22,147 nucleotides of DNA from a virus, in IMG/VR virus record IMGVR_UViG_3300042518_002072, positions 1 through 22,147 of that record; one strand, given 5' to 3'. This document shows positions 3,088-18,574 of this stretch, piece after piece; the first letter of the stretch is position 1, and every line of letters begins with the position of its first letter. The notes beneath the pieces are model-generated. The model did not search any database and was not told where the DNA came from. It saw only the letters and a program-made list of their open reading frames with translations. The position numbers and the translations under genes are program-made.

Positions 3088-3582
3088 ATGGACTGGTTAA
3101 TGCCACTCACCTTTGCCTTCACTCCTGATCAGCGCCAACGGGCTCGTGATGAAGCTTTTCGCAGGCAGTCTCTCAACGAAAAGCAAGGCAAAAAAGGCAG
3201 GAACAATGGGGCGGAGAAAGGAGATTTAGCACTACGCCATCACTTACTCGGAGCTGCGGGAGAAATGGCAGTCGCCGCGATGCTTGGCATAGAAGATAAG
3301 CTCTACCAAGAAACAGAGGCAAAACGTGGCTCTGCGGATCTTCCTCCAAATATTGATGTTAAAACTCGCTCCAAACATTATTACGATTTAATAGTGCAAC
3401 TAGACGAAAGTCCAGGTAAGATATTGGTGCTCGTCACGATTCAAAATCGCATTACCCTCATCCATGGCTGGATCAAGGCTGGTGATGCAATGAAGGAACA
3501 ATGGAAAAAAGATCCAGCAGGTGGGCGCCTCGCATATTTTGTCCCCAAAACTGAACTACTTTCTTTGTCTTTACTGAAGTGA
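3088..3582 (+). CDS. Small PD-(D/E)XK-type nuclease-like protein encoded just before the large terminase
   Basis: A 164-residue protein with a basic N-terminal third and a core that reads GAAGEMAVAAMLG (E59), then GSADLPPNIDVKTRS (D84, D90-V-K92), then a strand-rich tail. An early Glu in a helix followed by Asp and D-x-K on adjacent strands is the arrangement of restriction-endonuclease-like nucleases. The final TGA overlaps the GTG start of the terminase gene by 4 bases (GTGA), so the two are translationally coupled. Its place where a small terminase subunit is often found suggests a packaging-linked or recombination role, but it does not look like a small terminase. The ATG at 3088 was chosen; an in-frame ATG lies four codons downstream at 3100. 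Motifs are seen; nuclease activity is inferred. Confidence 0.6.
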   Translation: MDWLMPLTFAFTPDQRQRARDEAFRRQSLNEKQGKKGRNNGAEKGDLALRHHLLGAAGEMAVAAMLGIEDKLYQETEAKRGSADLPPNIDVKTRSKHYYDLIVQLDESPGKILVLVTIQNRITLIHGWIKAGDAMKEQWKKDPAGGRLAYFVPKTELLSLSLLK

Positions 3583-6314
3583 ACCTTACTTGCAGTCAAT
3601 TCGCTAAGCACGCCCTCGGCCTAGAACTTTATCCAGCACAGGCTCGCATTCTGGATGAATTTTTTCAGCCAGGAAAGTCTCATGCAGTGTGGGCCTTGGG
3701 GCGCCGCTGTGTCGTAGCCGATACGCTTGTGGCGACCAATATTGGCATGGTTGAAATTGGTTCGCTTGCTGGACTAGGCGATGCTATTGATGATGAATGG
3801 GAGCATTGCAGTCTAGAAGTTGCGCAGCCTCGCAATGAGAGGAGAGAAGCATCCCGCTTTTACAAGGGCGGCAAGCAGGATATTATTCGCATTCGCACTT
3901 CTCGCGGTTTTGAAGTGGCAGGCACTCCCAACCACCCAGTGATGGTGATGAGCGAAAATGGCGTTCACGAATGGCGTCCCCTTGGGGAATTAAAGCAAGG
4001 CGATCAAGTGGTCACTCGGCCTGGTGCGGATTTATGGTCTGACAGTCGTCCGTTTATCGCTCATCTTGCCCACAAAGCAGAAGAAGCCGCGCAGCTATCT
4101 CCTTATTCCAAGCCAATTCAGCCACCTTCTAGTCTGACTGAAGATTTTGCCTACGCGCTTGGCGTATTAGTAGGGGATGGATCCTGGACAATGAAAAGTG
4201 GCATCCAAGTGACTTCTCACGAAGATGATGCATCATTCATGAGTCAATCCTTGGAGCGAGGACTTGGCGTGCCTTTCACGCTTAAAAGGGACAATCGTCG
4301 CTTGTCTACATGCTCATTGAATTTCTGCTCGCAACATTACAGGCGTTTTTTGAGCGATCTTGGGTGGACTATTGATATTAAGCGAGATCAAAAACGCATA
4401 CCTTGGGTGATCATGCAATCCCCGCGATCCATTGTTTGCGCATTTCTTTCGGGACTATTTGATACCGATGGATGTGTAGAGAAAAATGGTCAGGCTATTT
4501 CGTTCAGCACAGCATGTGAAATGCTGGCACGAGAAGTGCATATGCTTCTTTTTAATCTTGGGATTGTCTCTACGATCAAGGCCAAAAAAGTACGAGGAAA
4601 AAATTATTGGATTATCGTACTCCTTGGCCTTGAGGCACGTCAACAGTTTTGCCGCGACATTAGCTTTCGCTTGCCACGTAAGCAGTTAAAAGCTCTTGAC
4701 GGTCTCAGCGTAGCCCGAGATGGCGGCAATTCGTTGGCCATCCCCCACCAAAAAGAATGGTTACGACGACTCGCTAATGACTTGGGGCACAGAAAAGGTG
4801 ATGGTCTGCTTAGTAAAATCCGCGCATGCGTTGGCAACGCTATCAAGGGCGGAAAAGAAGAGTTCAATGCAAGGCGTCTTCCTGGATTGATCAAGCTTCT
4901 TGATGAAAATAATATTCGCGGAGAAGCTGCTCATCATTTTAGGGATTTGAAAGATGTTCGCTATTTTTACGATCCAATAGCAAGCATTAAGAAAGAGCCC
5001 CAGCAAGAAGTGTTTGATTTTCATGTGCCAGTTAGCAATGCTTTTGTCGCAAACGGCATAGTCAATCACAACAGCGGCAAAACCTTGATGGCTGCAGTGG
5101 CATGCCTCTATATGTGCTTTGTTTTAGAAGAAGAATATCGCCGCAAAGTTAGAAAAGGGGAGCGATGGTACGTGGTGACGGTGGCCAACAGCCAAGATCA
5201 GGCCCGTATTGCTCTGAACAACATCCGCCAATTAATCATTGAAAGTCCCTTCGCTCAAGAAATTGTTCGCGAAACTGCCGACATCATTGAACTCAGCAAT
5301 AATTGCGTGTTCAAGGCCATCCCCACGTCTGGACGAGCTGCTCGTGGTCTCGCTTGCGCTGGCGCAGTATTTGACGAACTTGCCTTTGCTAACGAGGGCG
5401 ATGCAAACAGTGGTGGTCGTGGCATCTATGACGCTCTATCGCCTGCCATTGCACAGTTTGGAGGCAAGGGGCGCATCCTTGAACTGTCCTCTCCCTGGCT
5501 GACTGACGGCATCTTCTACCAGCATTTCAAAGAGGCAAGCTCCGGCAGGTTTCGTTTTATGCAAGCAGTGAATCTCCCAACATGGGAGATGAACCCAAGT
5601 ATTTCTCAAGAGTTTCTCGACGCAGAAAGACAGCGCGACCCCGAAAAGTTTAAGGTGGAATATGGGGCTCAATTCGCGAGTAATCTTTCAGCCCTTGTTG
5701 CAAGCGATGTTATTGATGCCTGTATTGATGATCGCCGCGCAGCACTACCACCACGCCCTGAATTCCAGGGAGCTTACGTCCTTGCCCTTGACCCCGCCCG
5801 TGGTGGCGTTGGCCGCGACGATTACACTGCTTGTATTGTTCACTACGAAAATGGCACTCTTGTCGTGGATAAGTTCCATTCGTTTGTTGCTGATTTTGAA
5901 ATCAATGGGAGGATGGAAGTCAATATCAATGCAGTGGAAGATTGGATTAAGGAGCAGCATCGCCTATATGTGTTTGACACGATTGTGATGGACCAGTTCA
6001 ACAGCGCTGGCACCATCCAAAGCTTGGCCAGTGATTTGCCCATCACGGAACTAACTTGGACAGTTAGTTCAAAAATGAAAGCTTTTAGCAAAATGCGAGA
6101 GCTGTTCAATGCAGGACAAATTAATGTCTATCGCCACGAAAAAGCAATTATGCAGCTCAAGAATTTAACCGTGGTGTATAAACCAAGCGGGCAATGGAGT
6201 GTAACTGGTGGTAAAGCCACTGGTATTGACGACTTGGCATTTGCAATGGCTGGTGCCATTCTTGCCGCGAGTAAAGATGATGACATTGGCTGGATCGAAA
6301 GCTTAATCTCCTAG
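3579..6314 (+). CDS. terL: Terminase large subunit interrupted by an intein
   Basis: The 911-residue precursor contains a 456-residue terminase and a 455-residue intein (C44-N498). Joining residues 1-43 to 499 onward restores ALGRR-SGKT, the Walker A motif of the packaging ATPase. Walker B is VFDE (D599, E600). The C-terminal nuclease domain has LALDPARG (D738), VMDQFNSAGT (D805) and GIDDLAFA (D884/D885), the three-metal-ligand pattern of RNase H-like terminase nucleases. The protein cuts phage DNA and drives it into the prohead through the portal. Translation starts at GTG 3579, overlapping the nuclease gene stop. Excised length is normal for a TerL. Packaging activity requires splicing, since the intein splits the ATP-binding loop. 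Confidence 0.93.
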   Translation: MNLTCSQFAKHALGLELYPAQARILDEFFQPGKSHAVWALGRRCVVADTLVATNIGMVEIGSLAGLGDAIDDEWEHCSLEVAQPRNERREASRFYKGGKQDIIRIRTSRGFEVAGTPNHPVMVMSENGVHEWRPLGELKQGDQVVTRPGADLWSDSRPFIAHLAHKAEEAAQLSPYSKPIQPPSSLTEDFAYALGVLVGDGSWTMKSGIQVTSHEDDASFMSQSLERGLGVPFTLKRDNRRLSTCSLNFCSQHYRRFLSDLGWTIDIKRDQKRIPWVIMQSPRSIVCAFLSGLFDTDGCVEKNGQAISFSTACEMLAREVHMLLFNLGIVSTIKAKKVRGKNYWIIVLLGLEARQQFCRDISFRLPRKQLKALDGLSVARDGGNSLAIPHQKEWLRRLANDLGHRKGDGLLSKIRACVGNAIKGGKEEFNARRLPGLIKLLDENNIRGEAAHHFRDLKDVRYFYDPIASIKKEPQQEVFDFHVPVSNAFVANGIVNHNSGKTLMAAVACLYMCFVLEEEYRRKVRKGERWYVVTVANSQDQARIALNNIRQLIIESPFAQEIVRETADIIELSNNCVFKAIPTSGRAARGLACAGAVFDELAFANEGDANSGGRGIYDALSPAIAQFGGKGRILELSSPWLTDGIFYQHFKEASSGRFRFMQAVNLPTWEMNPSISQEFLDAERQRDPEKFKVEYGAQFASNLSALVASDVIDACIDDRRAALPPRPEFQGAYVLALDPARGGVGRDDYTACIVHYENGTLVVDKFHSFVADFEINGRMEVNINAVEDWIKEQHRLYVFDTIVMDQFNSAGTIQSLASDLPITELTWTVSSKMKAFSKMRELFNAGQINVYRHEKAIMQLKNLTVVYKPSGQWSVTGGKATGIDDLAFAMAGAILAASKDDDIGWIESLIS
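3708..5072 (+). mobile_element. Intein with LAGLIDADG homing endonuclease, inserted in the terminase Walker A
   Basis: The intein spans precursor residues C44 to N498. The N-terminal splicing block starts CVVADTLVAT (nucleophile Cys1). Block B is GTPNHP (Thr116, His119). Two LAGLIDADG motifs follow: LGVLVGDG at 194-201 (D200) and LSGLFDTDG at 290-298 (D297). The C-terminal block is VPVSNAFVANGIVNHN with the penultimate His and terminal Asn, and the +1 residue is Ser499. All residues needed for protein splicing and the acidic pairs of a homing endonuclease are present, so it looks active on both counts. The endonuclease would be expected to cut intein-free terminase genes at this site. Confidence 0.93.
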
Positions 6315-6345
6315 TATGATTTTCAAACAATAGTTCTGTCATGAA

Positions 6346-6609
6346 GTGACTTATTGCAAATTAACTATGCAGGAAACTAAATTCCTCGTAGCACTATTAG
6401 AAAACGCTCCCACTAGCAAGCAAACCTCTCTCCAGCTTCTTGCTGCGGAACATCTATATATTCCTACATTGCTCCCAAAGCTTAAAGCTCATGTCAAGCG
6501 CTTAAAAGAAGAGGAGCAGTTGGAGCGCTCTTGGGAAGCAGATGCCACTGATGACGACTACATGCCAGACCATGACGGCAGTGAAAGTTTAAGAGAATAT
6601 GACGCTTGA
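6346..6609 (+). CDS. Small hypothetical protein after terL
   Basis: An 87-residue frame with GTG at 6346; an in-frame ATG at 6367 would give 80 residues beginning MQETKFLVALLENAP. The middle is helical with heptad-like Leu (LLPKLKAHVKRLKEEEQLERSW), and the tail is strongly acidic (DATDDDYMPDHD). Not recognised. It follows terL on the same strand with a 31-base gap and overlaps the start of the next small frame by 11 bases. A packaging accessory role is possible from position only. Neither start has a clear ribosome binding site. Confidence 0.55.
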   Translation: MTYCKLTMQETKFLVALLENAPTSKQTSLQLLAAEHLYIPTLLPKLKAHVKRLKEEEQLERSWEADATDDDYMPDHDGSESLREYDA

Positions 6610-6796
6610 CCATCGTCGTGTTATGATTTCAAAGCTTTCGCGAAGCACGCTGGCCAGCGTTTTAAAAGAACAGTATCGGGGGATGCTGTTCGTTGCCACA
6701 ATGGATCGAAGGCCATGGGCCGACCCATGGTTAAAAGCTGTACAACGGCGGATTGAAGCCCCGCCTTCAGCACCTTTGCTCCTCACGCCCTTGTAG
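6599..6796 (+). CDS. Small hypothetical protein, possible
   Basis: A 65-residue frame from the ATG at 6599, inside the end of the preceding gene, or from the ATG at 6623. The protein (MISKLSRSTLASVLKEQYRG, then MDRRPWADPWLKAVQRRIEA) has amphipathic helix character and a Trp pair. The stop codon lies within the first ten bases of the tRNA that follows. Nothing recognisable. Support is limited to its place in a co-directional row of genes and reasonable composition. Confidence 0.38.
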   Translation: MTLDHRRVMISKLSRSTLASVLKEQYRGMLFVATMDRRPWADPWLKAVQRRIEAPPSAPLLLTPL

Positions 6797-6860
6797 CCCA
6801 ACAGGTAGAGGCCCGAACCTTAAAAGTTCGACAGTGCGGGTCCGAATCCCGCCAAGGGTA
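6787..6860 (+). tRNA. tRNA with UAA anticodon (Leu by anticodon), short variable region
   Basis: Acceptor stem GCCCTTG (6787-6793) pairs with CAAGGGT (6853-6859) with one G-U. T8 and A9 follow. The D arm is GCC/GGC (6796-6798 and 6810-6812) around a loop containing GG. The anticodon stem CGAAC/GTTCG (6814-6818, 6826-6830) encloses CTTAAAA with anticodon TAA at 6821-6823. The variable region is only ACAGT (6831-6835). The T arm is GCGGG TCCGAAT CCCGC (6836-6852), and the discriminator is A6860. No CCA is encoded. The anticodon reads UUA, but the long variable arm normal for tRNA-Leu is missing. Confidence 0.82.
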
Positions 6861-6889
6861 TTAAAATCAAGCGAGCGCATCCAATCTCC

Positions 6890-7537
6890 GTGCTCAAGCG
6901 TTGCTCAAAGTGTTTGATCGCCAAACCGCTGGGGGAGTTTGGACCCAGGAAGAATAGTACTGACGGGCTAAATGGGCATTGCCGTAAATGTATTGCTTTA
7001 AAAAACAAAAAATGGAAAAAAGAAAATCCAATACGGTATCTTTGTTCAATGATGCTTGCGCAGGCCAAGCGAAGAGCAGCGGACTATGGGCGAGATTTCA
7101 ATTTGACACTTGAGGATGTACTTGAAGTCGTCGTGGTTGAATGCCCAGTGCTGAAAACACCACTTCGCTGGGAGTATCAACATGGACTAGGGCAACCCGA
7201 CGAACGGTCGCCATCACTAGATCGCATTGACAATTCCCGTGGGTATATCAAGGGCAATATTGCAATAATCAGCCACCGCGCTAATTCAATAAAAAACTGC
7301 TTGACTGTTAATCAAATTAAGTCATTATTTGAATACGTTTCACTGCCACAGCAGGGAGCTGTTGATCAGCTTCGTCCAGTGGTTAAAAAACCAAAATACA
7401 CGCGAATGTCGCAAGAAGAGATGCAACTTATTCGTGATCTCCATAGCAAAGGCTGGAGTTGCAGGAAGATCGCGGCTGTGGTCACGCAATCAAAAAGCTC
7501 TATTGCGGCTTTTATTCGCCAAGAGCTCCCATGCTAA
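6890..7537 (+). CDS. HNH-type (zinc-finger) homing endonuclease
   Basis: A 215-residue protein with GTG start at 6890. The N-terminus is a Cys4 zinc-finger module (C5, C8, C31, C34). The catalytic-like region reads SPSLDRIDNSRGYIKGNIAII (about residues 107-127), a signature common in small phage HNH / His-Me finger endonucleases. The C-terminal 45 residues contain a helix-turn-helix (GWSCRKIAAVV, then SKSSIAAFI) that could recognise DNA. The gene sits 29 bases downstream of the tRNA and is probably a freestanding mobile endonuclease gene. A relative with the same Cys4 and LDRID architecture but no C-terminal HTH lies at 13082-13702. Target site unknown. Confidence 0.78.
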   Translation: MLKRCSKCLIAKPLGEFGPRKNSTDGLNGHCRKCIALKNKKWKKENPIRYLCSMMLAQAKRRAADYGRDFNLTLEDVLEVVVVECPVLKTPLRWEYQHGLGQPDERSPSLDRIDNSRGYIKGNIAIISHRANSIKNCLTVNQIKSLFEYVSLPQQGAVDQLRPVVKKPKYTRMSQEEMQLIRDLHSKGWSCRKIAAVVTQSKSSIAAFIRQELPC

Positions 7538-7617
7538 GCTGAAAAGACGTTCACCCCAGCGATGGGGCGCATGAACAGCACGGTACGGAACGGGACTGTG
7601 CATCATCGGGAACCATC

Positions 7618-7737
7618 ATGAACCCTCTTGCTCTGATCAAGCAGCAGCTTGAGAAAGCTGCTCGTCTGCGTGAAGCTCAACATGCTTCTCTCGTTTATCG
7701 CGGTGTTGCTTATGTGCCCAAGCCACACTGGTTTTGA
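7618..7737 (+). CDS. 39-residue protein with DUF4278-like YRGVAY motif
   Basis: The ATG at 7618 opens a 40-codon frame ending TGA at 7735-7737. The peptide has an amphipathic helix (IKQQLEKAARLREAQHA) followed by SLVYRGVAYVPKPHWF. The Y-R-G-V-x-Y motif resembles the short DUF4278 proteins frequent in cyanobacteria and their phages, whose role is unknown. It is the last gene of the plus-strand run, ending 20 bases before a strong terminator. A small hairpin (GCACGGT/ACTGTGC, 7578-7601) lies just upstream. Confidence 0.6.
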   Translation: MNPLALIKQQLEKAARLREAQHASLVYRGVAYVPKPHWF

Positions 7738-7757
7738 GCATTAAGCAAATAATCATT

Positions 7758-7779
7758 GGGAGCGAAAGCTCCCTTTTTT
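7758..7779 (+). terminator. Rho-independent terminator of the terminase operon
   Basis: GGGAGC (7758-7763), GAAA tetraloop, GCTCCC (7768-7773), then six T. Strong stem with GNRA-type loop and U-tract, placed between the plus-strand operon and the convergent minus-strand genes. Confidence 0.88.
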
Positions 7780-7794
7780 GCTGCCTTGAGACAA

Positions 7795-7920
7795 CTAATA
7801 ACTCCTTTGTGTAGCCTCAAGGCTACATTGCCCGTCATTCCAATGGCGCCAAGCATTAGCACATATCGCCAGATTTGTAATCAAATACGAAGCAAAAATA
7901 AAGGTGCGGACAATTGCCAC
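7795..7920 (-). CDS. Possible 41-residue single-pass membrane peptide
   Basis: A short frame from GTG at 7920 to TAG at 7795. The sequence VAIVRTFIFASYLITNLAIC has the length and hydrophobicity of one membrane span and is followed by a polar tail (WRHWNDGQCSLEATQRSY). A purine-rich AAGGA lies about 10 bases before the GTG. The frame is open further upstream into the preceding gene, so the start is uncertain. It fills the space between the 75-residue gene and the convergent terminator. Weak support. Confidence 0.28.
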   Translation of the reverse strand: MAIVRTFIFASYLITNLAICANAWRHWNDGQCSLEATQRSY

Positions 7921-7951
7921 TGTATCTGCTTCCTTGTCGCAATTACTCTCC

Positions 7952-12418: not shown

Positions 12419-12575
12419 TATTTAATACATTCTTCAGCAAACCACCATGCCCTGACCCTGCCCTTGACTCTGCCCTATGAATCCTTAAGAAATTCTGTAG
12501 AAATTTAAGCTTTTGTATCGCCATGATACGAAAAAGCCCACATTTGAGCCACACCACTAGATACGATAGCCGTAA

Positions 12576-12609
12576 GCGGAGCCTCGCTTAAATTTACTAA
12601 GCGCTCCGC
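12576..12609. repeat. Two-segment hairpin
   Basis: GCGGAG (12576-12581) pairs with CTCCGC (12604-12609), and inside it CGCTTA (12585-12590) with TAAGCG (12598-12603), leaving a 3-base bulge and a 7-base loop. Twelve base pairs in all. Confidence 0.75.
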
Positions 12610-12645
12610 AAGCCAGTGCAGGCATGATTAGCCGCGCTTCTAGAC

Positions 12646-12773
12646 CAGTGAGCCCCAAAGGCGAACGTTCTATATAAGCGGCGGAAATCAAAAGGCTTGA
12701 CTAGCTGCGAAATTCCAGATAACTGAGCCCCCAAAGGGCGAAGGTCTCAGACAAGCAGCGAAAATCAAAAGCC
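12646..12773. repeat. Imperfect 51-52 base direct duplication
   Basis: Unit A (12646-12696) and unit B (12722-12773) share TGAGCCCC, CAAAGG, GCGAA, AAGC-GCG and AAATCAAAAG in the same order. In both, GCC-CCAAA-GGC can form a small hairpin: the stem is GCCC/GGGC in B and GCC/GGC in A. Divergence between units with the hairpin kept suggests selection on structure. Confidence 0.65.
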
Positions 12774-12879
12774 CGCGCAAGAAAGGCTGGCCCAGCTCCT
12801 AAGTAATGGGCTGCCCGTAGTGTGCGTCGCCTCCAAGAAAGCACTTTTTTTGTTTTTGTCTATCTTTAAAAGCTTGAAC

Positions 12880-12902
12880 GGCGGCTTTAAGGCCGCCTTT
12901 TT
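12880..12902 (+). terminator. Rho-independent terminator without an obvious upstream gene
   Basis: GGCGGC (12880-12885), TTTAAG, GCCGCC (12892-12897), then TTTTT (12898-12902). It points along the plus strand, and no plus-strand protein gene lies within several kilobases upstream, so it may end a noncoding RNA from the 12.5-12.9 kb stretch. Confidence 0.78.
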
Positions 12903-12949
12903 GCTGAGAACAATGCAAAGGAAAATGCTTTTTCTTGGTGCGTCATTCC

Positions 12950-13017
12950 GACGGCTTGAGGCCGTCTCCATTGGAGAAGCTAATTGTCTGAAATGCCTCA
13001 AGCGGCGTCTTTCAGAC
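12950..13017 (+). promoter_or_regulatory. Mutually exclusive hairpins in the leader of the HNH gene
   Basis: Hairpin 1 is GACGGC-TTGAG-GCCGTC (12950-12966). Hairpin 2 pairs GTCTGAAA (12986-12993) with TTTCAGAC (13010-13017), with an inner GCC/GGC. The segment GGCTTGAGGC of hairpin 1 is also complementary to GCCTCAAGC inside hairpin 2, so a third, competing structure is possible. The arrangement resembles an attenuator or riboregulator. Confidence 0.45.
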
Positions 13018-13081
13018 TTGCTTTCGGCATGCTGCGACTAGGTTTTTGCTGGTTACAATTTCGGAAGCTCGCCCGAACATT

Positions 13082-14228: not shown

Positions 14229-15134
14229 TTAAGCGATGCAGAATGCTTTTTTGTCGGCGTCAGTGTAGTTAATGCCGTGGGGTAGTTTAAACCGTAGGCC
14301 AATAATTGTACCGTATGACGGATCGGCAGGCCTAAAGTCTGACAGGTCACCATCATAAACTGCCAGCACTTGCCCATCATTTGCGCCATCAATTAAACCG
14401 GCGGCGCTTACATAGTGGGGCAAATCTTGTCCTTTTTTGAGCATAAAAGCCGCTGCAACATTCACGCCATTTTTGAGAGCATCGCGGCAAATCGCAAGAT
14501 TTGCGCTATTTTTCCAGCCATCAAATGATGCAGTGAGATGGTAGCCAATCCGGCGGCATTCTGCCCAGTTACGCTTAATTTTTGTATAGTCATAGAAAAT
14601 AGGTCGATTCGGTGCATGTTCTGCTGTTGCGTTGAATATTTCAAAAATATTGCGCTTGCCTAATGGTAAGTCGCGGCCAAATTTGCGACGGCAGAATGTA
14701 GCAAATGCTGGCGTTACGAAAAAATCTATATTTTCCCACGCAATGTCTGACGTACCATTCAGTCGAATTGCAATATTTTCTTCGGTGTTTGTATTCAGCT
14801 TGGCAAGAATTGCAACAACCAACAATCGCGCGAATCGCTGTTTGTCGACGCTGAATGCTAACGTCCGGCGAATTCTGGCCTTTTGTTTGTTTGTCATATA
14901 GACGGGATTGCCTGCAAAATGTAGGCAAATCTTGCGACAATTGCCAGCACCGGGGCAAACATTAACGCCCGAAACATCACTAGGGGCAAGATGGAGAATG
15001 TATGTTTGAATTCGGCTTTTTTCTGTCTTGGGATTAGTGGAGAGAATGTCGCGGTAGGAGATTTTATATTGTTTGCACATTGAAGCCAAATCGGCAGGCA
15101 ATTTGGCGCGAGAATTGAGAACAGTAGTAGGCAT
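14229..15134 (-). CDS. GP88-like phage protein (function unknown)
   Basis: A 301-residue protein from the ATG at 15134 (MPTTVLNSRAKLPADLASMC); a GTG at 15212 would add 26 Lys/Ser-rich residues and overlap the next gene. The signature VCPGAGNCRKICLHFAGN, followed by NKQKARIRRTLAF and RFARLLVVAIL, matches the Cys-rich core of the mycobacteriophage gp88-like family, and IAIRLNGTSDIAWEN with YDYTKIKRNW and YHLTASFDG are further conserved-looking strands. The Cys cluster suggests metal or cluster binding; the reaction is not known to me. The gene heads a short minus-strand group beside the large repeat locus. Confidence 0.65.
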   Translation of the reverse strand: MPTTVLNSRAKLPADLASMCKQYKISYRDILSTNPKTEKSRIQTYILHLAPSDVSGVNVCPGAGNCRKICLHFAGNPVYMTNKQKARIRRTLAFSVDKQRFARLLVVAILAKLNTNTEENIAIRLNGTSDIAWENIDFFVTPAFATFCRRKFGRDLPLGKRNIFEIFNATAEHAPNRPIFYDYTKIKRNWAECRRIGYHLTASFDGWKNSANLAICRDALKNGVNVAAAFMLKKGQDLPHYVSAAGLIDGANDGQVLAVYDGDLSDFRPADPSYGTIIGLRFKLPHGINYTDADKKAFCIA

Positions 15135-15180: not shown

Positions 15181-15363
15181 TCAGAATTCGCCCGGAAGCT
15201 TAACGCTGACACTCACAGACTGTTGCAAAGCGTGCAAAGCGCCCATAACTGCGGGACTGCGGGAGATCTCCGGATTGGCGGCCAATCCCTCATTAAAGAG
15301 AAAAAACAAGGCCGTGAATTCCGATTCTGTGAGGGCTGGGATTTGCTTTTTTGCTTTTGTCAT
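15181..15363 (-). CDS. Small hypothetical protein
   Basis: A 60-residue frame from the ATG at 15363 (MTKAKKQIPALTESEFTALF); the frame stays open upstream into repeat-rich DNA, which is unlikely to be coding. The composition looks genuine: basic N-terminus, then helices (TESEFTALFFLFNEGLAANP and SPAVMGALHALQQSVSV). Not recognised. It precedes the GP88-like gene by 46 bases on the same strand and is the last gene before the 950-base repeat locus. Confidence 0.55.
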   Translation of the reverse strand: MTKAKKQIPALTESEFTALFFLFNEGLAANPEISRSPAVMGALHALQQSVSVSVKLPGEF

Positions 15364-15435
15364 TTTTTTGATCGGTTGAGAGAATCGCGGAATCGCTTCC
15401 GGCGATGCATGCATCCTGCCAAAAATCAACGGCCT

Positions 15436-15472
15436 TGCATAGTGGACGGTTTAGCAAAGCGTCCACTATGCA
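15436..15472. repeat. Perfect 13-base inverted repeat (hairpin)
   Basis: TGCATAGTGGACG (15436-15448), 11-base spacer, CGTCCACTATGCA (15460-15472). It is followed at once by the palindrome GCAACGTTGC (15473-15482). No T-tract follows, so this is not a standard terminator; a protein site or DNA hairpin is likelier. Confidence 0.85.
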
Positions 15473-15485
15473 GCAACGTTGCGGG

Positions 15486-15611
15486 ATGGTATGGGGCTGA
15501 GCGATTCTGGGCACAACGACAAACAAAAGAATGATCGTGCACGCGCGTACCATCTCTCCTGCCAAACAGTCAACCGCTGCAACATTCCGCAACATTCAGC
15601 GCCCATACCAT
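15486..15611. repeat. Long-range inverted repeat
   Basis: ATGGTATGGGGCTGA (15486-15500) is complementary to TCAGCGCCCATACCAT (15596-15611) with one extra base in the right arm. The right arm is preceded by two direct copies of GCAACATTC. Confidence 0.65.
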
Positions 15612-15718
15612 AGGACGGGTGAGAATCGCCGGATTGTGACGAAACATCACAAAACGCCAGAATGCAGCAAAGGATACAGACAAAAAAACCTAGGCGATTG
15701 TCTGCATTTAACGCCAAA

Positions 15719-15893
15719 CAGTAGGCAACATCTAGCACCGCGCAGTTGTGCTCACCTAGCGGCGCACGGTAGGCAGTTCTCAAGCGCTGGCACAGTAGGT
15801 ATCACCTACTGCCATAGAATCACGCCAGTAGGTGAGCAGAACTGGCGCACCACCAGTAGGCTACATTCAAGGCCGCCACCAGTAGGCTACATT
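15719..15893. repeat. Dispersed GTAGG repeats with two 18-base direct copies
   Basis: CAGTAGG occurs near 15719, 15793, 15827, 15854 and 15880, with CGGTAGG near 15766. CAGTAGGT (15793-15800) faces ACCTACTG (15804-15811) as an inverted pair. CCACCAGTAGGCTACATT is duplicated exactly at 15850-15867 and 15876-15893, a 26-base period. Confidence 0.75.
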
Positions 15894-15921
15894 TAGCGGG
15901 GCAAATCAGGCCGCCAGGCTA

Positions 15922-16115
15922 TTTAGCGCGAGATGCTAGAAATCGAGCACCTGGCGCTACTTAGCACGAGATGCTAGAAATCTGGCGCGAGAGGCTATTT
16001 AGCATGAGATGCTAGAAATTTAGCATCAGGCGCTAGAAATCTAGTGTTTAGCATGAGATGCTAGAAATTTAGCACGAGATGCTAAATACTAGAAATTTAG
16101 CGCGAGATGCTAAAT
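15922..16115. repeat. Array of about nine short palindromic repeats (TAGC-n-GCTA)
   Basis: Units of 17-22 bases follow each other with almost no spacer. The commonest form contains TAGCATGAGATGCTA, a 6-base-pair inverted repeat around GAG, flanked by TT and GAAAT. Units start near 15922, 15944, 15961, 15982, 15999, 16020, 16048, 16069 and 16097. Variants change inner bases (GCGC, GCAC, GCATCAGGCGC) while keeping TAGC and GCTA or close forms. Confidence 0.85.
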
Positions 16116-16132
16116 GCGGCTAGGCGCATACC

Positions 16133-16230
16133 CTGATACGACCTTGGCCAGTTCCTTGATACGCCTCTGGCCGGTTCCAATTTTTTTTCTGATACGGAGC
16201 TAGCCGGATCTGATACGGAGTTAGCCGGGT
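16133..16230. repeat. Four iteron-like CTGATACG repeats
   Basis: Copies begin at 16133, 16155, 16189 and 16210, each 21-23 bases: CTGATACG, a variable centre, then TGGCCGGTT or TAGCCGG. The last two are adjacent and nearly identical. A T9 run lies between the second and third. The same CTGATACGG occurs at 13852-13860, and TGATACG in the hairpin at 12509-12537. Confidence 0.75.
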
Positions 16231-16243
16231 CTTGAGACCCGGC
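16224..16243. repeat. 8-base-pair hairpin at the end of the repeat locus
   Basis: GCCGGGTC (16224-16231), TTGA, GACCCGGC (16236-16243). No T-tract on either side. It overlaps the end of the last CTGATACGG repeat and is followed by a nested hairpin GGCGAT/ATCGCC with inner ACAATG/CATTGT (16251-16300). Confidence 0.7.
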
Positions 16244-16312
16244 CTAGTAAGGCGATGACGGCTTAAACAATGAGTGAACATTGTGACGGGCTGAATCGCC
16301 TGTGAAGCCACT

Positions 16313-16471
16313 TTACCATCCATGACCATCAAAAGCCGCCTTTAGGGCGGCTTCTTCGCTGGCAAACGGTCCTCCTACAAAGCTTTCATCATCATCGGCA
16401 TAAAAATACCAGCCTTCCACAAGCTCTGTGCCCTTGCAGCAATCTTCAGAGAAGAAATCCACGAGGATCAT
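16313..16471 (-). CDS. Small hypothetical protein
   Basis: A 52-residue protein from the ATG at 16471, which overlaps the TGA of the preceding gene (ATGA). The sequence GWYFYADDDESFVGGPFASE and EAALKAAFDGHG has the strand-turn-strand-helix form often seen in small phage proteins with a W-Y-F-Y strand and a GPFAS/T turn. Not assigned to a function. It is the last gene of a minus-strand group that ends at the repeat locus. Codons near the end form a hairpin by chance or design (GCCGCC/GGCGGC). Confidence 0.68.
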   Translation of the reverse strand: MILVDFFSEDCCKGTELVEGWYFYADDDESFVGGPFASEEAALKAAFDGHGW

Positions 16472-16767
16472 TTCACTGCCTCCTGAAGCCTCTTCCACAT
16501 CCATTGTTCCTTGGTATCAGGGCGCATCAGCTCATAGCCTTCATGATCAATGATGGCATCACCGGCACTATCCACGTACCCCTCCAGAAGACGCCTCCAG
16601 ATGCCCTTGCAAGAGCCTTGCTGGTCAAAGATGGCAATGGTGTCTTCCCGATCCTCCATAGCGAGCCTGACGTGGAAGAGAAGGTCTCTCAAGCGGGCCG
16701 CTTGGTAGCGGCCCTTGCTGGGAGGAAAATACGGGCCGTTGTCTTGATAAGTGGAAATGGTCAGCAT
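16468..16767 (-). CDS. Hypothetical protein
   Basis: A 99-residue protein from the ATG at 16767, three bases after the stop of the preceding gene and overlapping the next ATG by 4 bases. Visible segments: basic N-terminal part (PPSKGRYQAARLRDLLFHVR), an acidic turn (MEDREDTIAIFDQQG) and a Trp-rich C-terminal helix (KEQWMWKRLQEAVK). The strand IAIFDQQGSCKGIWR resembles a small alpha/beta fold. Not recognised. Tight packing on both sides supports a real gene. Confidence 0.7.
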   Translation of the reverse strand: MLTISTYQDNGPYFPPSKGRYQAARLRDLLFHVRLAMEDREDTIAIFDQQGSCKGIWRRLLEGYVDSAGDAIIDHEGYELMRPDTKEQWMWKRLQEAVK

Positions 16768-17109: not shown

Positions 17110-17637
17110 TCACACTTTGGTCTTGGTGCGACGCTTCACTTGGCTGCGCTCCACGTAAGGAGCAGGATCCACCCAACCCTTTCTACGGAAGACGCTGTTG
17201 GTAGAGGCCCTCATTTGCTCTCCATCGTCGAAGGTGATGATGATGGTCCAGCAAGTGGGGATGCGCTGCTCAGTGCCATCAGGAGCGCAGGTGATGCTCC
17301 AGCCGCATTCTTCATCGGTGGCTTCAATGGCGACAATGGAGTGCCAACCAACCACTTTGGTGGTCATCAGACCAGTCGATTGGAGAATTGCCAGCTCGTC
17401 TCCCACTTGCAGGGAATGGCCAAGAGCTTCACGCTGGCGCTTCAGAGCGTGAGCCCAATCCTGGAATTCGTTGTGAGCCTTCTTGGTGTGGCGCACGCCA
17501 TGACCATTGCAGCCGTAGCAAACGCTGCCGTGGAACTGGTTGTAGCTGTGCTCGCCAGAGCCGCCACAACGCCCGCACACTTGCAGGGGGAAGCCGTAGC
17601 GATCAACAGAGGGGAAGGAATCGAGAGTAATGGTCAT
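17110..17637 (-). CDS. DnaJ-type zinc-finger protein
   Basis: A 175-residue protein from the ATG at 17637 (MTITLDSFPSVDRYGFPLQV). Residues 21-48 hold two CxxCxGxG repeats, CGRCGGSG (C21, C24) and CYGCNGHG (C40, C43), forming one zinc site as in the central domain of DnaJ but without a J domain. The rest includes LQVGDELAIL and VVGWHSIVAI, suggestive of a small beta barrel, and a very basic C-terminus (RSQVKRRTKTKV). Members of this type are common small phage proteins of unknown role; RNA, DNA or protein binding is possible. It lies between the two copies of the repeated intergenic module, so it is probably its own transcript. Confidence 0.75.
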   Translation of the reverse strand: MTITLDSFPSVDRYGFPLQVCGRCGGSGEHSYNQFHGSVCYGCNGHGVRHTKKAHNEFQDWAHALKRQREALGHSLQVGDELAILQSTGLMTTKVVGWHSIVAIEATDEECGWSITCAPDGTEQRIPTCWTIIITFDDGEQMRASTNSVFRRKGWVDPAPYVERSQVKRRTKTKV

Positions 17638-17656
17638 TGGTCTTGGGAAGGAGAGA

Positions 17657-17720
17657 CTCGCGCCTCGTTGGAACAACAATACAGCAGAAAGGCCCTGTTT
17701 CCAGAGCCTGTTACAAAACT
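17657..17720 (-). promoter_or_regulatory. Repeated intergenic module, copy 2
   Basis: Minus strand: TTTTGTAACA, hairpin GGCTCTG-GAAA-CAGGGCC (17708-17691), TTTCTGC, TGTATTG, then the same 18-base element (17674-17657, identical to 17063-17046). The hairpin contains a G-U pair only in minus-strand RNA (C-A in plus), pointing to minus-strand transcription. It separates the 69-residue gene from the zinc-protein gene. Confidence 0.55.
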
Positions 17721-17930
17721 TTACGAAACGTGGAGGCTTTCAATGCGGAAGGGGCCGAGGCGGCCTATTCGTAAGGCTTTTTCCTTAACAAATTGTTGAC
17801 TGTTTGTTTTAGTGTTTTTGATTTTATAAAGGCCAGTATCAGGATATAGTTTAGTGATTGTATATTCTCCTCTCCATTGTTTAAAACCGGAGTCGTAAAG
17901 ATCGACAATGGTGCCAACGTTGTATTTCAT
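17721..17930 (-). CDS. Small hypothetical protein, SH3-like beta fold
   Basis: A 69-residue protein from the ATG at 17930; this ATG overlaps the TGA of the preceding gene (ATGA) and has GGAG eight bases upstream. The pattern KYNVGTIVDLYD, then WRGEYTITKLYPDTGLYKIK, is a run of short strands like SH3/Tudor-type barrels, followed by a basic tail. Function unknown. It is the last gene of the HNH-helicase group. Confidence 0.7.
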   Translation of the reverse strand: MKYNVGTIVDLYDSGFKQWRGEYTITKLYPDTGLYKIKNTKTNSQQFVKEKALRIGRLGPFRIESLHVS

Positions 17931-18574
17931 AGGCAAAGCTCCGAGAGTTCCTCAAGAAGCTGAAGACACCAAGCTTGGCCTTTCTTATCGAGCAGCTTTT
18001 GAGCAGTGGGAGCTGGCTCTTTGAGCTGTAGCGATGGGAAGGGGGTGATGATGCCTGCTTCGATTGCTGCTGCGCGAGCGCTTTTAAAACGCTTGGCAGG
18101 GCCGATTTCGTTGAGGAGATTGGGCTGGTCGCGGGCAATGCGTTCCAGGAAATAGGCACGGGAGTTGCCATTTGCACCGGACTTTACATTGTAACCTCCG
18201 GACTTTGCCTGCATACGTCCTGTTTTGGGATCCCTGGGTTGCTCCCTTGTGTCCCCGTGCTCATCCTTGCGCTGTACCAGCTTGATCTGCCCAACAAGCC
18301 ATTGAGCATCATCTTTAACCTTGCGTTGTGATGATGCTACGACAGACAGGCATTTCTCAAACAAAGGAAGATCCTTTATACCAAGGCCCTCCTTGTGCGT
18401 CATAAAATCAATAAGATTGGCGAATTGCTTCACTTCTCCATTGACATCATCTACATATTCTTCAAAGAGTTTTTTCTCAATGATTTCACGCATGTAGAAA
18501 TAGAAAGCTTCCTCACCCACTGCACTTTCAAGATCGTTGGCAATGCTCCTGGCGGAGAATACAGTAAGGCTCAT
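17927..18574 (-). CDS. Hypothetical protein with putative DNA-binding C-terminal segment
   Basis: A 215-residue protein whose ATG overlaps the helicase stop (ATGA). The N-terminal half is helical (SIANDLESAVGEEAFYFYM and so on). Residues about 127-180 read GGYNVKSGANGNSRAYFLER, IARDQPNLL and ARAAAIEAGI, which resembles a segment repeatedly seen in cyanobacterial and phage proteins (GNS-AY-L-RL-RD-P then AAAIEAG), where the last helices look like a helix-turn-helix. I infer DNA binding. Coupled translation with the helicase suggests the two act together in replication or recombination. Confidence 0.7.
   Translation of the reverse strand: MSLTVFSARSIANDLESAVGEEAFYFYMREIIEKKLFEEYVDDVNGEVKQFANLIDFMTHKEGLGIKDLPLFEKCLSVVASSQRKVKDDAQWLVGQIKLVQRKDEHGDTREQPRDPKTGRMQAKSGGYNVKSGANGNSRAYFLERIARDQPNLLNEIGPAKRFKSARAAAIEAGIITPFPSLQLKEPAPTAQKLLDKKGQAWCLQLLEELSELCL

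Follow-up and report, generated by a model that had tools for sequence, protein, structure and literature searches.

The window, by which we mean the whole 22,147-nucleotide stretch of viral DNA analysed here (IMG/VR record IMGVR_UViG_3300042518_002072, a 22-kb linear virus record), carries on its minus strand a conserved gene for a 53-aa protein (16313 to 16474, starting at M11 of a 63-aa open reading frame), which forms the upstream edge of a noncoding locus at positions 15364 to 16312. Proceeding from this edge toward lower coordinates, a GCCGGGTC/GACCCGGC hairpin (approximately 16223 to 16243), alike in relatives L008, L026, and L046, lies just before an iteron-like array on the minus strand (16131 to 16232). 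This array has four CTGATACG units, counted at 16133 to 16231, with the consensus GGNNCCGGCTAGNNNCGTATC and spacings of 21, 33, and 23 bp, and an A-tract falls within the 33-bp gap. It is followed by a lineage-specific cassette (15908 to 16112) of seven TAGC-N7-GCTA palindromes and degenerate copies. The seven palindromes lie at 15924 to 16112, where 0.25 would be expected; none of 100 shuffles reached seven, and no further copy occurs elsewhere in the window. The cassette is common to few relatives (L005, L026, L028, and close kin) and is replaced in L123. A GTAGG/TAGCCTACTG repeat module (15713 to 15897), which L120 and L005 also carry and of which L024 has a short stretch, contains four (C/A)AGTAGG repeats at about 15718 to 15895. 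The direct repeat GAATGTTGC-GGAATGTTGC (15578 to 15602, minus strand) is immediately upstream of a promoter-like element, P1 (TTGACT-N17-GTACGC; 15545 to 15573, minus strand), which was assigned as a putative promoter by sequence comparison and is conserved among relatives with the -10 variants TATTTC, ATACGC, and TATCCG. P1 is bracketed by a long-range inverted repeat, ATGGTATGGG/CCCATACCAT (15486 to 15495 and 15602 to 15611), and beyond it lies a 13-bp hairpin or operator-like inverted repeat, GTGGACGCTTTGCTAAACCGTCCAC (15436 to 15472; fold z of -5.3), of which relatives possess a degenerate form. Directly downstream of the locus is a small ORF of 60 aa (15181 to 15363, minus strand), shown to be coding by a codon-phase test, and the first large gene behind the locus is that for GP88 (PF17338; 14229 to 15212, minus strand), the start of which is probably internal, near 15131 to 15133.

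All of the repeat classes that the initial annotation had listed at 15364 to 16312 (hairpins, inverted repeat, GTAGG repeats, TAGC/GCTA palindromes, and iterons) were recovered by direct reading and by repeat listing. In the locus, 0.265 of the 8-mers are repeated; shuffles reached at most 0.068, the median for the window was 0.054, and every one of the top repeat-dense 900-bp intervals overlapped the locus. Since two independent contigs from other metagenomes (L003 and L004) were 100% identical to the window across the locus, the locus is not an assembly artefact. Alignment with a third contig, L005, spanned most of the locus, with an identity of about 86%, and the substitutions were distributed over the codon phases as 26/25/23 and 5/8/10, with indels of 1, 2, and 9 bases; in the adjoining small ORF the distribution was 1/6/0, a single phase accounting for six of the seven. 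The even phase spread and the non-triplet indels indicated that the locus is noncoding and that it ends where its edge had originally been placed, and they ruled out a coding reading of the ORFs within it. This agrees with the earlier description of some 950 gene-free bases, and no conserved protein was found to be encoded by this stretch in the relatives. The accompanying statement that overlaps of a few bases are the rule between the other genes was too strong, as there are gaps at 12419 to 13045, about 6320 to 6890, and about 7540 to 7950. The GC content of the gap that constitutes the locus is 0.51, and no match to it was found in cultured phages or plasmids.

In addition to GP88, the window encodes a portal protein (PF06381), an intein-bearing terminase, a class I ribonucleotide reductase (RNR), and a helicase. 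The intein that splits the terminase large subunit (3579 to 6314, plus strand) carries a LAGLIDADG-like domain. A glutamine-II riboswitch (7545 to 7601, plus strand) and a tRNA-Leu(taa) (6787 to 6860, plus strand) are also neighbours in L013, and a stretch at 17734 to 17917, between the ORFs at 17110 to 17679 and 17927 to 18574, is about 75% identical in many relatives (e.g., L008, L013, L027, and L029). A second long conserved gap of about 600 nt (12419 to 13068, minus strand) lies between GP88 and an 81-aa gene that precedes the RNR genes; it has 71% mean identity in six relatives, compensatory changes in 23 of 117 predicted pairs, and no Rfam match, is located at or near the skew minimum of the family, and is a candidate for a large structured RNA. 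Among cultured phages, Synechococcus phage S-CBS4 (NC_016766) is the closest; its portal protein is about 64% identical over 97%, and it shares the gene order RNR-endoVII-phosphoesterase-TerL-portal. Unlike the window, however, the S-CBS4 record is without the locus and starts and ends exactly where the locus would sit, ending within the homologue of a 99-aa gene and starting shortly before the homologue of the 81-aa gene, so the 53-aa gene, the locus, and GP88 are either absent or were left unsequenced. The S-CBS4 record has two iteron-like units at position 64458. A relative of complete length, G001, encodes a primase/helicase-like protein, Sak, an exonuclease, ThyX, and dCTP deaminase, and no DNA polymerase was seen among its large proteins that were checked. 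An integrase is present in 3 of 12 records, and two records with 127-base terminal repeats are probably complete.

The order 53-aa gene, locus, GP88 was found in about 45 loci in a first scan. A second scan, made via GP88 relatives and the 53-aa neighbour, yielded 80 non-redundant loci of S-CBS4-like cyanophages, 56 of which reach GP88; in all 80 a noncoding stretch follows the 53-aa gene. Relatives of this gene are encoded in 203 IMG/VR stretches, an alignment of 15 relatives has 18 invariant columns, and none was found in cultured phages. The 53-aa gene relative at L041:547-732 contains an in-frame TAG in its longer frame, which a shorter start may avoid. Additional genes are sometimes inserted beside the 53-aa gene; past it, L135, L124, and L144 carry ORFs that resemble HNH homing endonucleases and are apparent insertions at the edge of the locus.

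The locus is laid out in three zones. Zone 1, adjoining the 53-aa gene, consists of 2 to 5 direct repeats in a single orientation with the consensus GGNNCCGGCTAGNNNCGTATC, which was built from 60 units of the first set of loci. Iteron-like runs were detectable in 60 of the 80 loci, on one strand only; the reverse strand gave 0, and the 4 kb upstream gave 2 of 80. The 131 unit spacings cluster at 21 to 23 and 31 to 33 bp, that is, at two to three helical turns. A divergent class of zone 1 has GGGACTNGCTRAAANGCGGTAA, and further variants were missed by the search pattern. In G001, G002, G005, and G013, one conserved iteron-like site lies outside the locus; it was put down to chance within exonuclease coding sequence, as judged from its position in G001. 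Zone 2, in the middle, is an operator-like cassette that varies among relatives, and zone 3, adjoining GP88, contains GGAATGTTGC repeats, a promoter-like TTGAC-N17 element, and an inverted repeat.

The most informative feature of the locus could not be seen by the initial annotation: the repeats in the middle are lineage-specific modules, many of them apparently LexA-, Fur-, or PHO-type sites. Between the window and L123 the ends are kept (88% identity over locus positions 1 to 200 and 81 to 90% over 628 to 947), whereas the middle 400 bp or so is unrelated sequence of equal length, a 10-bp-period AT-rich array in L123 and palindromes in the window. L120 shares chiefly the GTAGG module with the window and has a LexA-type box in place of the TAGC array, and the cassette of L045 consists of about 27 TGCTGCANNN units of 10 bp. 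The LexA-type box AGTACN4GTACT occurs 70 times, in 48 of the 80 loci, versus 0 in 213 kb of upstream flank; scrambled control palindromes were found 0 times in the gaps. In G001, G002, and G005, all genomic copies of this box sit in the locus, and the window has none. The palindrome ATAAGCN3GCTTAT (24 in loci versus 0 in the 213 kb upstream) and TATGCGCATA (49 versus 0 upstream) are confined in the same manner, and a Fur-type 7-1-7 box, TGATAATNATTATCA, occurs with no more than one mismatch in nine loci versus 0 upstream. Four tandem CTTAACCT boxes gave eight matches in 2.9 million viral contigs, seven of them in the locus of the S-CBS4-like family; in such PHO-like loci the number of CTTAACCT-type units ranges from 10 to more than 20, the highest number being in one locus. 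Other cassette types, with AATAATCAACAATTAAT arrays and GATCATGATC-rich palindromes, were seen in L020, L021, L122, L146, and L181. Thus, both for the sites of the relatives and for the palindrome of the window, sites are concentrated in one noncoding region and near-absent elsewhere.

Consensus sequences have been published for two of the regulators concerned. The cyanobacterial LexA consensus is AGTACWNWTGTACT (PMC3091678); for SphR the binding site is tandem CTTAACCT, the copies being separated by a 3-bp linker (PMC1906773). The LexA-type boxes match their consensus, and the same form is found in the recA promoter of a candidate host, a freshwater Cyanobium genome in which the sole AGTACN4GTACT lies about 150 to 170 bp upstream of recA. 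It is also upstream of recA in a second genome and upstream of an S24 peptidase gene in another. Host-family genomes contain about two AGTACN4GTACT each (0 to 6), roughly twice the reversed control; one sampled site per genome was inspected for context, and most had no demonstrated SOS-gene neighbour. No S24 repressor of the phages' own was found in 13 phage records, so host LexA would be the natural reader of the LexA-type boxes in the relatives. Neither the exact PHO tandem nor the Fur-type form occurs in 61 candidate-host-family genomes, so that both assignments are made from the published consensus only; a relaxed PHO form occurs once, no more than the control. The TAGC-N7-GCTA 21-mer of the window is absent from 84,980 genomes, and at two mismatches there were five matches versus about four for the control in 121 host-family genomes. 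In the absence of enrichment, the TAGC repeat was rejected as a host operator for the sampled host family. Patterns for NtcA, CRP, HLR1, and CIRCE gave no site in the window.

A cis-acting control function, as first proposed from the sequence, is well supported: the locus is noncoding, its place is conserved in the phage family, and it combines phased direct repeats with operator-like palindromes and promoter-like blocks. We consider it somewhat more probable than not (roughly 55%) that this is a modular control locus of S-CBS4-like picocyanobacterial siphophages, read by DNA-binding regulators and possibly including an origin. A phage or host protein would bind the short phased direct-repeat array at one end, DNA-binding regulators would occupy the swappable middle cassette, with its operator-like palindromes or tandem boxes, and the conserved promoter/operator block at the other end would drive an operon starting with the small gene and GP88. 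The bound regulators may report the state of the host, LexA reporting DNA damage and, in some relatives, Fur- and PHO-type regulators reporting metals and phosphate, and they may thereby gate the start of phage transcription, of replication, or of both. In the loci where both elements were located, the LexA boxes are mostly roughly 240 to 350 bp upstream of P1; this distance argues against simple promoter occlusion and leaves replication gating, action at a distance, or titration. An overlap of LexA boxes with promoters (18 of 70 versus 5 expected) was discounted because the box itself supplies -10-like bases. A more specific version is offered tentatively, and we would not count on it: the locus would serve as a plug-in board, in which relatives swap near-consensus cassettes, each for another of the host's global regulators (LexA, Fur-type, PhoB/SphR-type, and others), beside a constant initiator-binding array. 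The host signal to which the start of replication or of early transcription is tied would then differ from phage to phage, or the regulator would be titrated.

The initial annotation had suggested a replication origin or a partition or control centre, and of these the control locus stands. That the locus includes an origin is possible, if unproven. Iteron-type origins of plasmids and phages have phased direct repeats, and the cognate initiator gene is usually adjacent. The strongest alternative, to which we assign a substantial chance that falls short of even, is such an origin, in which an initiator binds the phased repeats and melts the middle cassette, with the palindromes serving the replication complex or acting as a spacer. 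The noncoding stretch shares with these origins direct repeats of about 22 bp, in one orientation, spaced by two or three helical turns and placed beside a conserved A-tract. The middle is AT rich in some relatives (L041, L042, and L123), cassette length is kept though the sequence is unrelated, and the presence of a primase/helicase-like protein with no DNA polymerase among the large proteins checked is also consistent with an origin. GC skew, averaged over 10 genomes, is negative throughout the 6 kb or so that precede the locus, and its cumulative curve reaches the minimum at about +2.5 to +3 kb from the locus start, 2 to 3 kb downstream and near a different noncoding element. The locus is nevertheless inside the skew basin of these genomes (-1 to +3 kb), off its bottom. 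Unlike a typical iteron-type origin, the window has no DnaA box (TTWTNCACA), no initiator was recognised next to the array or elsewhere among the subset of proteins scanned, and the gap is about 50% GC overall. No support was obtained for GP88 as an initiator: its predicted structure (pLDDT of 89) shows no Rep-like fold and gave no significant structural match, and the weak top matches include radical-SAM proteins. Moreover, an iteron origin leaves the LexA-, Fur-, and PHO-type sites unexplained.

In another explanation, near-consensus sites on replicating phage DNA would act as a sponge that titrates host LexA, Fur, and PhoB/SphR and so disturbs host stress control. Consistent with titration, a phage genome carries up to three perfect LexA-type boxes, compared to the two or so of a host-family genome, one locus holds its more than 20 PHO-like units, the LexA boxes are mostly not near P1, and host genomes are without such perfect Fur and PHO tandem sites, as supra-consensus decoys predict. 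However, it is not evident what a phage would gain if it titrated an activator like PhoB, and the window's own site has no known host regulator. We know of no natural phage example of a regulator sponge, and none was found in a limited full-text search. We consider this explanation unlikely.

An RNA leader or other noncoding RNA, with the palindromes as hairpins in the transcript, is very improbable. The TAGC block does fold far better than shuffles on both strands (z of -5.5 and -6.7), but any palindrome array folds well, relatives replace the middle by non-palindromic tandem arrays, and no Rfam match above the gathering score was obtained for the locus. Furthermore, complementarity among the inner bases is not in excess at the LexA-, TAGC-, or ATAAGC-type sites, which favours recognition of the double-stranded DNA by proteins over hairpin formation in RNA. 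A parS-like partition centre of a phage-plasmid, to which the dense direct repeats and palindromes and the scarcity of integrase (3 of 12 records) might point, is scarcely credible, as no match to ParB_N (PF02195) or to AAA_31 ParA (PF13614) was obtained in 13 records including the window, in searches that were positive in 10 and 14 control genomes, respectively.

Returning to the modular control locus, phage regions dense in host regulator sites have been described previously. Phages of Alphaproteobacteria have intergenic regions dense in CtrA sites, interpreted as "lytic deferment" (PMC9437464). As at the present locus, a large noncoding region is full of sites for a host master regulator, these are concentrated at one place in the genome, and they are gained and lost fast among relatives. 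The present locus differs in that several site types, with predicted binding, occupy one homologous position in different relatives and in that whole cassettes are exchanged next to a direct-repeat array that is itself conserved. Phages under host LexA control, such as GIL01 (PMC4551915) and others (PMC9437464), resemble the loci of the relatives in having LexA-type boxes in a phage control region. In those phages the sites belong to the promoters of lytic genes or of genes for a repressor or antirepressor, whereas here most boxes are far upstream of the located P1 and few records encode an integrase (3 of 12). The cyanophages S-PM2d and P-SSM2 have genes under host PhoB control (PMC10976474) and share with the PHO-like loci the presence of PHO boxes in a cyanophage, with a host phosphate regulator as the reader, putatively so in the present case. 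Their boxes are short and belong to the promoters of genes; the present noncoding loci are filled with CTTAACCT-type units, of which there are 10 to more than 20, and the exact tandem form is absent from the host-family genomes. For interchangeable cassettes at one homologous locus, no precedent was found in the open-licence literature that was searched.

The locus provides a family-wide marker, with one cultured close relative whose record is without it, and a concrete site at which to test the start of replication. If the proposed reading is true, environmental cyanophages would sense several host stress systems via one evolvable locus, and the sequence of the cassette could predict which host signal (damage, metals, or phosphate) a given phage follows.
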